Positions 9,744 through 61,597 of a stretch of 64,000 bases of DNA are shown here, one piece after another (within the stretch, counting starts at the first letter, position 1; each line of letters starts with the position of its first letter). The position numbers and the translations under genes were made by a program. The DNA is from Macrocystis pyrifera (taxonomy: Eukaryota; Sar; Phaeophyceae; Laminariales; Laminariaceae), in assembly GCA_031763025.1 (NCBI GenBank), contig JASSKH010000028.1, forward strand, positions 6,707,324 to 6,771,323, written 5' to 3'. Below the pieces are notes generated by a model, which was given only the letters and a program-made list of their open reading frames with translations, was not told the DNA's origin and did not search any database.

Positions 9744-9854
<111 letters not shown>

Positions 9855-29215: not shown

Positions 29216-29324
29216 GAGGGGGGGAACTCTTGGGTACTGGCATCATGATAGGAAACGGTAGGAAACGGAAGCAGCGGCCGGTGCCGCACTTACTTACACG
29301 TTCTACGCCAGCCAGTACAGTATT

Positions 29325-30689
29325 CCTCATTATTTGGTAAATGAGTGGAAGCTTTCACAACTTCCATTTGGAAGTAACAAACTTCCAAAACTTCCGTTTT
29401 GACTTCCAGATGGATGTTTTGCACTTCCAAATGGAAGTTGTGAAAGTCAAAACGGAAGTTTTTTACTTCCAAATGGATGGAAGTTGTGAAAGTCAAAATG
29501 GAAGTTTTTTACTTCCACATGGAAGTTGTGAAAGTCAAAATGGAAGTTTTGGAATGGAAGTTTTGGAAGTCGAGTGGAAACTTCCATTTCGTCCATGGAA
29601 GTTTCCATTTTGGAAGCTAGTGCAAGCCAGTGTAAATTTCCAAAGTGGAAGCCAGTGGAAGCAAAGTGGAAGCTTCTACTGCCATGCCCGGTAGAAGCTT
29701 CGTCCAGCTTCCACTAAGCTTCCATACACCTTGATATGCTTTCACCTACTGTCACCCACTTCCACTTCACGTCTGGAAGTTCCATTTGACTTCTACCTTC
29801 AAGGAAACTTCCATCGGTGTCCGCAGAATCTTCTGTCCACTTCCATCCTCAACCGTAACTTCCACTTACTTCCACCTACTCGCATCCGCTTCCATTCAAC
29901 TTCCACAACTTTCGTTTGGCTTTCAAAACTTCCTTTTTACATTTAATTTCCAACGAAACTCGCATCTGAGTACGCATAATCTTCTGACCACTCCCCCCAT
30001 ATTCAAGCGCGACTTCCACCTATTTGTACGTACTTCTCACGCACTTCCATTAAACTTCCAATGGCTACAGCTTACTTATTTATTTATCTTCCATTTAACT
30101 TCCATTTCAATGAAAACTTCCACGCACGTCCGCAGACGCTTCCATCCACTCCTATATTCAAGATTACCTTCCACTTAATCCCACTCACTTGCATCCGCTT
30201 CTAATTATCCAACTTCCAAAGTTACATGTAACCCCTACTTACACGGAAATTCATATCATCAGCGTTCGCCGAAGCTTCCATACACTCTCGTATGCAAGCA
30301 TAAATTCAACATTATTTCACGTACTTCCACGTGCTTTCATCCACTTCCATTAAACTCCCAAGAAATATGTTTTCCTTGTATTACCATGGCAAACTCCCAT
30401 CTACGTCTGTAGACGCTTCTATCCACTCCCCGGGGCCCATATGTATGTGGGACTTTGGCCTAATTACTTCCTTTTGGAAGTGAAAATGGAAGTTTGGAAG
30501 TCAAAATGCAAGTATTGGAAGTCGGGTATGAGCCTACCACGGGGATCCCATTCCACATTCAACTTCCAAAACCTCCATTTCGACTTCCAAACGGATTTTT
30601 TTTTTCTTCTCCAAAGGGAAGTTTTCGACTTCCAAATGGAAGTTTTGGAAGTCGAGTGGAAGCTTCCACTCATTTACCAAATAATGAGG
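29325..30689. mobile_element. 1.37-kb TIR/foldback element filled with ACTTCCA/TGGAAGT words
   Basis: The left end reads CCTCATTATTTGGTAAATGA and GTGGAAGCTT. The right end (30658-30689) is its reverse complement, AAGCTTCCACTCATTTACCA and AATAATGAGG. The interior has dozens of TGGAAGT or ACTTCCA words. TGGAAGT-type words dominate 29400-29690 and 30470-30660, and ACTTCCA-type words dominate ~29700-30400, so much of the element can self-pair. No protein-coding frame was accepted: open frames here are translations of the words. Confidence 0.8.
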
Positions 30690-30807
30690 TGGACCCAGTA
30701 GATGGGGTAGAGCCCCTCCCCAACGTCGCAGAAAAAAAAGTACCAGGTACCAGGTAACATGACATTTCGAAGGATAAATCAAAGAAGTGTTTCATCAAGC
30801 ACTAAAA

Positions 30808-34737: not shown

Positions 34738-37700
34738 TCAACCCATCCGAAAGCCCTGCGATAGCAACCGCTGTTGATCCGCAGCCGACCCCCGGTGCTC
34801 CAGCGCTTCGTACAGGGGCCGTGCCGCCGGCGGCGGCGAAACGCTTCCTGAGAGGAGTTCCCTGAAAAATCGGAAGCGTCAGTTGTCAACCAAACGAGAA
34901 CGGGGGCGGGGGGCGGAGGGCGGAGGAGGGGGAGTCGATCGTTTTATACAAAAATGTGTTCGCCAGGTGGGCGGAGTCGATCGTTTTATACAAAAATGTG
35001 TTCGCTTGCTCGCCTTCGGCTCAAGTACCGACCGTTCACGCTACGAGTATTTGCTACGAGTACACCACCTTGCAGGCGTGGGGGCGGCAGCAGCAACATC
35101 GGCGACAGCTCGGCAATCCACCCACCCACCCACCTGACTGACACTTCTCGGCCGTAAAATTTCCGGTTGACGTCCGCCCTAGCGACGATAATGCCTCCCT
35201 CCAGGCTCAGACCCGCGAAAAGACCTCGGCTGTGGCTGTCTGCGAGACCGTAATCGGCAAACAAAATGCGCACACAATGAAAACAAATAGACGAAGAAAT
35301 AAATAAGAGAAACAAATATACCAGGTAAAAAACGAAACAGCAGACAAACAAAGTGAACAAACAACACAGAACAAAACAAACTACAGAACAAATAAAAAGA
35401 AAACTAACCAACAAACTAACAAACTAACAAACTAACAAACTAACAAAAAACACAAGCATACACAAAATAAACGAAAAAAACAAAGCACGAAAAGCGCGGC
35501 GAAACCTTTTCTTTTTTTTACTTCTTACGTAGGTCGTCGATGTTTTCACGGGCGATCGTATAGTTCTGATGCTGCATATCAACAAAACACCAGTTTAGTC
35601 GACGGCCATTTCGTCGAGAAAGTACCTCTCTCTCCAGAAAAGTGAAGCCCGTTTGGGTGAATAGGCGTGAGATCCCTGATTTCCCGGGAACATTTGTACC
35701 TATTTCGCACCTACCAGGTACTAAATCATTCAACTCATCAGTGCATACCTGGTATTCAATTTAGCAGTTCCCCTGGGGGTCACGGGGGGGGGGGGGCGCA
35801 TACACGCGCATATAACCCCCCAGCCGCTGATAGAGGTAGCTTACGAGAGCGGCGTTGGGAGACGCCATCTGCGACGGCGCCGAGTAGTTTCCTATACCCC
35901 CTCCAACCCTTCCCGGAGGGAGGCGCGCGGTTCTACGCGCATTTTAAAAAAACCCCGGAAAATTCCAAGAGTAGAGGCGTGGGGGACACCCTCGGCGGCA
36001 ACGCCAAGCATTTCCCTATATCATACCCTATACATACTTCAGGGAAGCTTTGCACCCATACAGGATTCAACTATCAGTACTATACCTACCTGGCATTCAA
36101 CAGAGCAGTTTCCGGAGAGGGGGGGTACTCGATATTATGCCTGGCCGCAGTCGTATGGCCATAATTCCCGGGGGAGGGGGGGGGGGGGCTTTTACGCGCA
36201 TATCAACCCCCACCCGTGCCCGCTCTTGAGATAGGTGGCTCACGAGGAGGCGTGGAGGACAGACAGCCTGTGGGGCAATGCTGGGCATTTCCCTTTACAC
36301 TCCCTTCCCCGCCGGCCTCTGCGGGGGAGTGGGGGGGGGGGCGCGCGATTCTTCGCGCATACAAAACAGCAGGAATGTTCGCCGATCGGATCAGCCCTCG
36401 CGGGTTGGGTCGGGTAGGGTTGGGTCGGGCAAGTGTGACCCGGCCCGACCCGACCCGTGATACTTGAAAAAAATCCGGACCCACCCGCGGGTCGGGTTAA
36501 TACGACCCGTGAAAATACGTACAAAAACATTGCCTGCCAGCGGTAACTCACAAGAGTAGGCGTGGGCGACGCCCTCGGCGGCGACGCTGACGTTGCCCGC
36601 CCCTGTTCGTCCCAGCGGGCCCACTGCCACGCTTAGTTCCGCGCCGATGGACACTTGGCCCCTCCCTGCCGACATCATAGCCGGGTGCCGAAGCAAGGGA
36701 AGGCATGATGGAGCAGTAAACGGAACAAATCGCGAAACAACACGTACAAGAAACAGCAATGAGAAAAACCACCACGGGATTATTGGCAAAACAGCAAAAA
36801 CAGGAAACACACAAGGTGGCGACGACAAACATAAAACAAGTGATGTGGGTGCGCGGCGGCCAAAGGCACTTAGGCAGCATTGACCGACTATCAGAAAAGC
36901 GGGCGCGCTTGCTTATTTCACCCACCTGAATCCCTGCCTCCCCCCCCCCCCACGGCCTCTCCTCCACCGAACATTGGCGGGCTATCCTAAGGCTAACGCG
37001 ACGGCTATTTCTAATGCTAAGGCCGAGGCTAAAGGCAAGGCTCAGACCAAAGTCAAGGCTGAGGAAAATGTTAAGAATAACGCTCAGGCTAACGCCAAGG
37101 CTAACGCTAAGAGCAACGCTAAGGGTAGCGCTGAGGCTAAGGCTAAGGCTAAGGCTAACGCTAAGAGCAACGCTAAGGGTAGCGCTGGGGCTAAGGCTAA
37201 CGCTAGGACTAACGCTAGGACTAACGACAAGACCAATGTTTAAGCTAGGGCTACGAGCGGGAAGAAGACTAAAAGTACCAGGGCTTTTCGCGGGTCAGGT
37301 CAAATCTCACGGGTCGGGTCGGGTCGGGTCGGGTCAGCTGACCCGACCCGACCCGCGAGATTTTGAAATCCTCTTGACCCGACCCGACCCGATCCGCGAT
37401 ATTTAAAAAGTTGTTGACCCGACCCGACCCGATCCGTGAGATATGAAATTATCCTGACCCGACCCGACCCGACCCGCCACCTTCGGATTGACCCGTGAGA
37501 CACGGGTTTCATGCGGGTCGGGTCACCTTGACCCGTGAGACTATTTATCTTGACCCGCAGGTCCGACCTGTGGATCCGGCCCGTGGGTCGACACTTCAAA
37601 AACAATTTATTGTCCATTTTTGTGCCCACAAGCGATATGTGGCCTGGCTGTAATGGGTATAAATGGATGTGGGCATGCGTATATGGATTTGGCAGTGTTT

Positions 37701-39259
37701 TAATGTGTGAATAAGATACCAAAAGAGTATTATTGAGTATTTGTACGAGAAAAGCCTTTGGGTAAGAGAACGGGAAGTGCTTTGAGTGTCGGATCCGCGG
37801 GCCGGATGCGCGGGTCCGACCCGCGGGTCAGCAGAAAAGAACTCGCGGGTCACGCTGGGCCGACCCGCGAGTGACCCGTTTCTCGCGGGTCATGACCTGA
37901 TCCGGCCCGTGAGCTTTTCATCACCTCTTGACCCGACCCGACCCGACCCGACCCGTGAGATTTGAAAAACTCTTGACCCGACCCGACCCGACCCGTGAGA
38001 TTTGAAAACCTCTTGACCCGACCCGACCCGTGAGATTTCGAACACTTCCTGACCCGACCCGACCCGACCCGTGACATTTTGAACACCCCGTGACCCGACC
38101 CGCGGGTCGGGTCATGACCCGCGAAAAGCCCTGAAAAATACCAAATTTCACGGCCAATGCCTAGCTTTCCAAAATTCACCTGAAAATGCCTCGACGGCGG
38201 AGTCGGTGTTAAGTACCAGCACGAAATCGGTTATCTCCCCGCCGATTAGCGCGCCCCACCCCATGCCAAGCGTCGCGATCGCCGAGGGCGCGGACCAGAA
38301 GCCTTCCTCCGTCCTCGCCACCACTAGTCCGGTCCCAACACGGCCCGCCACGATGAACCCCCTAGAAGAGAAAGTTCGTAGATTGAGGGTTGTTACAGCG
38401 TTCGTTCGGAGGAGAAAGAGCAAACGAGGACGGCGAAGAGGAAGAGGAAGACTCGGCTTGTGCCTTGTCGGTTTCGATTGATTTTCGTTCTATTCTTGTG
38501 TTCTTGTGTGTGCTCGTTGTTAGTTTCTGGTAATTTATCTTGTACGAGCTTCAGTTTTTCTTGGGAGCTATTAAACGAGCTTTTCTTGCTGCGCGATTTT
38601 TGCCTTCTGCGGATTAAATTATCTGCGACATGTTTGCGATTCTCTCTCTCTCTCTCTCACTCCTCCTCCTTTTCCCGATAAGCGCCTCCTCGTGGGGTTA
38701 GCGGTTATATACATGCGGTAAAATAAATACAAACAGCAGCAAACAGTGCAGCCCAGTTCACTCTAAGTTCAGCACGCATTGATGCACGTACGTACGTACG
38801 TACTACCGCGCCTTTGACCGCGTCCACATACACCGCGCGCGGCGGGTTCCTCGGGCGAGAGGTCAGAGGGGCCAAAAAAACGGGATGCACCCCCCCCTGC
38901 CCCCCTCCTTCTCCTCCCCGAGCGGTGGAGAACCTTAACTCCGCTCAAGGGGAATGATCGTATCACGCAGTGGGTATATGGTGAGGCATCCACGAGGCAG
39001 TTACGTAGTAACCCCATTGCTGTCTCTGGAAGTGGCCACACCAGAAAACAAAATCAATCGATTCGAATCTGTCCTCCATACGCAAGTCTAGGCGGTTCTC
39101 AGCACGATGCATATCACCCTTCATGCACCACACGGCGCTCCGTGCTCGGTGCAAGCGATGTCTGCCTGGTCGGTGAATACCCGACGTGCTCCCCCGTCCC
39201 GTAATTGAAGGCATGCGAAGGTCTATGGTCATACGACTACGGTCATGCACGACACAAGT

Positions 39260-61217: not shown

Positions 61218-61463
61218 ACACGGTGTACGGCAACGTCTCCGTACACCAGACAACACGTAATATTCACTTTCGTACCTACAGCAGCAGCACCCAAGTACGA
61301 GTATACGACGACAGCATATTGCGATTGTGCATAGATATATACCAGGTATAGAACGATATTACGACCAACAAGAACGCAGGGATTGGCAACGAGTTGTTAT
61401 CATGCCGGACTCAGTATCGGAAACTTAAAACCTCGTACGAGTTCGCGAGGGTTTTTTTTTTTC

Positions 61464-61597
<134 letters not shown>

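Follow-up and report, generated by a model that had tools for sequence, protein, structure and literature searches.

A dispersed DNA transposon family of the giant kelp Macrocystis pyrifera with arrays of one short word at its ends

The word-rich element studied here lies in a window of 64,000 nucleotides of Macrocystis pyrifera DNA (the whole stretch that was analysed) and is a mobile DNA transposon. Copies bounded by the same terminal inverted repeat (TIR) are dispersed over the genome and flanked by 8-bp target-site duplications, and the element is therefore not a local satellite. We consider it reasonably probable that the family is a non-autonomous cut-and-paste family, probably of the hAT superfamily and foldback-shaped, in which subterminal transposase sites have been amplified to arrays.

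Results

Dispersed copies and target-site duplications

When the genome (537,376,219 bases in 223 contigs) was searched with the element, at least 40 places were found (the best 40 of 350 candidates), being the window copy and 39 relatives. The relatives are 83–91% identical, many of them matching over 1.3 kb. When up to one mismatch is allowed, 244 sites in the genome match the TIR's inner 24 bases, an intact copy contributing two of them, while the reversed pattern occurs at none. The preliminary description had called for this search and for an alignment of the copies, and had held that a TIR present only here, with flanks free of duplications, would mean a local satellite; what emerged is a dispersed family with target-site duplications. 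A satellite in the usual sense, a head-to-tail array without dispersed TIR-bounded copies, does not describe this family, and the dispersed copies with their duplications leave a local satellite without mobility a practically negligible probability.

Twenty-eight of the 40 loci were aligned, with L038, L022 and the loci lacking both tips left out. The 8-bp duplications match at seven or more positions in 14 of the 28 copies, compared with 1 of 756 mispaired flanks; when shifts of up to 5 bp are allowed, 16 of the 28 copies match, against 1.2% in the control. The other 12 stay below seven of eight when shifts are allowed as well; five of these reach six of eight. The window copy is one of the 12, with a strict match of 3/8 that shifts of up to 5 bp do not help; a collapse of CCAGCCAG to CCAG would explain the loss on the right. 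Decay and recombination between copies could account for the mismatches in the 12 copies, and chimeric copies with non-matching flanks have been reported for Galileo (PMC3573991, in the part of the article available). Counted over 29 rows, L022 included, flank positions 1 to 8 agree in 15 to 22 copies each, and the ninth in merely 5 and 8 of 29. Loci L004 and L007, which differ by 0.3% and have an identical left flank, represent the same insertion, and L020 and L022 have their left flank in common, so that there are fewer independent copies.

The 28 aligned copies are 1.4 to 2.7 kb long. The median divergence between copies is 9.5%, and 26 of the 28 lie 2.7 to 6.8% from the majority sequence, which suggests, as far as sequence divergence can tell, a burst of similar age. 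Miniature inverted-repeat elements (MITEs) are short, under about 800 bp; the non-coding sequence, the TIRs and the many copies fit such a class, but the length does not.

A few loci are arranged differently. Locus L022 has two element ends joined back to back with almost no spacer, and at L012 and L023 extra tips are located 118 and 109 bp away. Left-type tips are also paired in the same direction, 739–770 bp apart, on contigs C211 (19008329/19009099) and C218 (15689058/15689797), perhaps as a tandem or satellite-like form.

The element in the window

The preliminary description had placed the element at 29325–30689, enclosed by a 30-bp inverted repeat. The repeat is perfect, as the span and its reverse complement begin with the same 30 bases, but each end had been set 7 bp too far in: CRGTGGT and TGGACCC are common to the copies, with the 8-bp duplications outside them, and hence the ends lie further out. 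From comparison with the family copies the element has the extent given in Table 1, with the tips CAGTATT on the left and TGGACCC on the right. In the majority sequence, 26 of 31 tip positions agree between left and right.

Table 1. Coordinates of the features in the window.
Feature	Position	Strand	Remarks
Left target-site duplication AGCCAGTA	29310..29317		right side keeps only AGTA (30697-30700)
Complete element	29318..30696	+	1379 bp; from comparison with family copies
Left terminal inverted repeat	29318..29354	+	30 bp of the preliminary description, extended outward by 7 bp
Left word array	29346..29672		both orientations, ~21-bp units
Centre	29708..30349	-	diverged ~150-bp tandem monomers, CTTCCA orientation but for one word
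Right word array	30475..30668		shortened in the window copy
Breakpoint at which 394 bp of the family majority are missing	30627..30628		between two copies of ACTTCCAAATGGAAGTTTT
Right terminal inverted repeat	30660..30696	-	inverted match to the left end
Second one-word element, another family	37279..38133		855 bp, tips CAGGGCTTTTCGCGGGTCA

The 7-nt word had been said to recur dozens of times, and it does: 16 TGGAAGT and 24 ACTTCCA are present inside 29325–30689, compared with 6 and 3 in the window outside that span. The corresponding hexamers number 22 TGGAAG and 32 CTTCCA in that span. The complete element contains 54 of them, 52 being TGGAAG(T/C), whereas 1000 shuffles that preserve the dinucleotides averaged 1.33 and never exceeded 8; the window outside the element has 34 in 62,621 bases. 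Dense as the word is, the phrase "almost wholly" went too far, as the hexamers cover at most 324 of the 1379 bases. Part of the remainder is spacer or degenerate word from the same repeat units. The switch of strand preference inside the element is also present, with both arms mixed and the centre all in CTTCCA orientation except for a TGGAAG at 29774. On the majority sequence, TRF resolves the centre into 4.0 copies of a monomer of about 150 bp.

No open reading frame of 150 or more amino acids was found to start in the window copy. For the entire element, DNA folding yields -236.5 kcal/mol, a value from which we draw no conclusion. Elsewhere in the window, a 386-bp tandem repeat (2.6 copies) is located at 10–1031, and there are two long homopolymers, a run of about 110 C at 9745–9854 and one of about 146 T at 61452–61597.

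Arms and repeat units

The family sequence, of about 1.77 kb, is made up of a tip, the left array, the centre, a larger right array and the other tip. Each arm is an inverted copy of the other (79% match over 267 columns), and both contain internal tandem units of 21 and 42 bp, as foldback elements do. The number of words per copy, a count proposed in the preliminary description, ranges from 54 to 94 on both strands over the 28 copies, the window copy having the fewest. Two spacings between words are conspicuous, 21 bp with 29 pairs and 42 bp with 18.

Insertions and deletions of at least 12 bp were counted in 27 copies, L007 being left out. The arms contain 101 of the 108 and the centre 7, with 21 bp as the most frequent length (15 cases). 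Of the 99 arm indels no longer than 150 bp, 39 deviate by at most 2 from a multiple of 21, where 23.8% would be expected (P = 4e-4, shared descent ignored). The indels thus sit in the arms and proceed at steps of about 21 bp, from which it follows that the arms grow and shrink by repeat units; this supports the earlier suggestion of a foldback element grown by internal amplification. An arrangement of one word per helical turn was considered and rejected. The phasing at 10.5 bp is weak, with the left and right arrays below the 99.9% level of the null, the centre just above it and the pooled set above it, and the 21-bp period is kept solely as the size of the repeat unit.

Longer relatives with the same ends

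Locus L030 (contig C215, 4734153–4740621) measures 6.47 kb from TIR to TIR, and its word array runs about 1.8 kb inward and then fades. A TIR pair on C216 (4067814–4091744) spans 24 kb. A 1049-base piece of L030 from beyond the array is matched over its length, at 83–86%, on C216, C142 and C210, and the same extension recurs in inverted form, at 73–74%, close to the right-hand end of both the C215 and the C216 element. Extension pieces within 10 kb of the TIRs listed (100 of the 244 sites) are also located on C142, C201, C206, C195 and C219. Extension and TIR are paired 15 times among the listed TIRs, compared with about 0.16 expected under independent scatter, several of the 15 falling in one element or in duplicated segments.

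The majority sequence departs sharply from L030 at about position 1148, which is its junction with the right array. Other TIR pairs also contain the extension, which makes loss of sequence from the short family a likelier explanation than a gain in L030, and the 1.77-kb form looks like an internal-deletion derivative of longer elements with the same ends. The part of L030 outside the family sequence amounts to 2 kb; the seven open frames compared with Pfam, out of 14 listed there, matched no family at E ≤ 1.

The TIR pairs of about 7.45 kb on C206 and C195 (L071 and L072) were considered as autonomous elements and discarded. They are segmental duplicates, 99.7% identical, of one copy with an insert of about 5.8 kb, which is bounded by direct repeats of 232 bp, contains a long open frame and resembles an LTR retroelement. 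The copy itself has CCCACGTA on either side and thereby adds one more insertion with a target-site duplication.

The word as a candidate binding site

In the majority sequence, 93 of the 95 words are followed by T or C (76 T, 17 C), giving TGGAAG(T/C), and the same is true of 25 of the 27 words in the diverged centre (15 T, 10 C); array words descend from one another, and these counts are not independent. Of the control hexamers, 9 of the 29 present in 56 kb of left-flank sequence from the 40 loci continue with T or C, and 17 of the 34 in the remainder of the window do so. The word TGGAAG(T/C) contains AAG(T/C), the known subterminal core of hAT elements, with its degeneracy included. According to the accessible part of one article, the BED domain of Hermes has the site 5'-AAG(T/C)-3', of which 17 and 14 occurrences are present at the two Hermes ends, and Tol2 has AAGT motifs near its ends together with the palindrome AAGTACTT (PMC10368747).

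The preliminary description had set internal amplification and a protein-binding site against each other, and both may be true. The core being equal to the Hermes site favours the second, where binding itself is a prediction by analogy; by this analogy, TGGAAG(T/C) is probably the docking site of the transposase that moves the element. The agreement with Hermes is telling, no proof, the core having only four bases. Word positions are hardly better kept than others among the copies (4.7% versus 5.1% changed), and no selection on the words after insertion is seen beyond this small difference. Dead copies would show word positions changing almost as often as others in any case.

A second one-word element

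Another element of the same plan is present in the window (Table 1). It contains 52 CGGGTC/GACCCG (14 CGGGTC and 38 GACCCG), compared with 26 in the rest of the window, and its flanks AAAAGTAC and AAAAATAC match at 7 of 8 positions. A relative (88% over 866 columns) is nested in the centre of L039, between CTATACTC and CTATATTC, and is absent from all 27 other aligned copies, of which 26 continue across the site and one, L040, is altered there. Its tips and its 8-bp duplications are of hAT type. That two families in one window follow one plan and yet differ in their word points to a shared cause, for example transposases that need many sites.

Search for a transposase

Domains of hAT dimerisation are abundant in the genome, with at least 150 matches among the candidates scored, none of which is within 30 kb of the 100 TIR sites listed out of 244. 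Around the same 100 sites and within the same distance, none of 94 MULE matches was found, nor any of 18 BED matches, mostly weak; the BED search was run at E ≤ 1 and also matched two bacterial or archaeal control genomes, so that its 18 matches count for little. Thirty hAT loci with 1.5 kb flanks contain no family tip with fewer than four errors in 20 bases and at most two words each. Neither these 30 loci nor the 30 kb around the 100 listed TIR sites yielded an autonomous partner. The KDZ domain (PF18758) had no match in the genome and none in the control genomes either, so that this search shows little.

In the same hAT search, AT-rich word arrays (GTGATAT and ATATGATATCAT) were seen downstream of hAT dimerisation domains at L041/L042 and L044/L047, and L045 has no such array. 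These are perhaps subterminal arrays of other kelp hATs and are only a hint.

Discussion

Assignment to a superfamily

The usual hAT tips are CAG-type at both ends; the left tip CRGTGGT fits this, while the right tip, GGGTCCA when read inward, does not. Two other hAT features are present, namely the 8-bp duplication, at a frequency far from that of the mispaired control, and the AAG(T/C) core in nearly all words of the majority sequence. Drosophila FB elements have a 9-bp duplication and MULEs one of 9–11 bp, compared with 8 bp here. The 7 bp of a Galileo-type duplication do not fit either, as positions 1 to 8 each agree in more than half of the 29 rows. Inverted arms of short tandem repeats are a property of Drosophila FB elements, which are tied to MULE-like transposases, and of rice Tnr8.

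Both of these are mentioned in the articles on Galileo, a Drosophila element of the P superfamily that has long, internally repetitive TIRs like those of the kelp family (PMC3688188, PMC3573991). As given in the available parts of these articles, THAP binding sites have been shown near the Galileo end and in its tandem repeats, and their authors propose that many sites give specificity. Galileo differs in its 7-bp flanking sequences, in having three named sites (BS1–BS3) where each kelp copy has several tens of words, and in its known transposase, none being linked to the kelp family. Tetris, a foldback element of Drosophila virilis, is similar in its lack of a conserved open reading frame, its shape and the tandem repeats in its TIRs; its transposase source was not found, and its authors suggest that the repeats may hold binding sites (PMC4079207). 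Its tandem units are of about 220 bp and its duplications of 8–10 bp, and the accessible text does not describe it as built of one short word (PMC4079207). Hermes and Tol2 share the subterminal repeats with an AAG(T/C) core, and palindromic pairs occur in them (PMC10368747, available part), but each of the two has a transposase gene and scattered sites, whereas the kelp family has a longer word, arrays, foldback arms and no coding sequence. No description of a one-word element of this kind was met among the titles and abstract openings of the open-access articles listed by our searches.

Proposed mechanism and alternatives

In the mechanism we propose, a hAT transposase supplied in trans would move the element, and the N-terminal BED zinc fingers of this transposase would bind TGGAAG(T/C) as a subterminal repeat. 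Many sites could raise local binding and end recognition and help to assemble a multimeric complex, and array growth would hence be favoured or tolerated. Length variants would arise from slippage and unequal exchange, the well-bound ones spreading, and the short 1.77-kb form would have come from longer elements with the same ends by internal deletion.

The element may instead belong to another superfamily that duplicates 8 bp (Zisupton or Dileera of the KDZ group, P or Merlin), its word being bound by that transposase. P and Merlin elements make 8-bp duplications. The hAT genes are not near the listed TIR sites, which speaks for such an origin, as do the 8-bp duplications of Zisupton and a Dileera (PMC12730594, in the part available) and the several transposase binding sites in the long repetitive TIRs of Galileo (PMC3688188). 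Nevertheless, the word core equals a hAT site, the genome has no KDZ match (in a search that matched no control genome either and shows little) and the MULE domains that exist are not near the TIR sites listed, so that we regard another superfamily as rather unlikely.

To a similar degree we doubt that the word arose as a by-product, spread passively as a satellite within a transposon by slippage and unequal exchange and lacking any binding role. Indels in units of about 21 bp, a period that tandem duplication alone predicts, suit this explanation, as do the little or no conservation of the word above other positions and the array-mediated deletion in the window copy itself. It does not readily explain why the irregular centre keeps the T/C end, with both letters used, unlike the flank hexamers, nor why two families in one window follow the same plan with different words; furthermore, Hermes and Tol2 use such repeats as binding sites (in the available part of PMC10368747). 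Dense arrays in both orientations would also suit a host factor (a transcription factor, chromatin protein or origin protein) acting in expression, localisation or escape from silencing. This we think distinctly improbable, given that the hexamer is sparse in the window outside the element and that the arrays are densest in the arms beside the tips, as expected of transposase sites.

Implications

A non-autonomous, probably hAT family with amplified candidate sites bears on the question of why certain transposons possess ends that are long and internally repetitive. The kelp family offers natural length variants with 54 to 94 near-identical candidate sites, in which the effect of site number on transposition is directly testable, and a possible titration of the transposase is likewise testable. 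The finding would carry the logic of hAT subterminal repeats to the brown algae. Tentatively, and as a possibility only, the giant kelp may harbour a guild of non-autonomous transposons that consist of little beyond docking sites, with one word per family (TGGAAGY; CGGGTC), which would outcompete others for transposase by the number of their sites and may titrate it away from the autonomous element.
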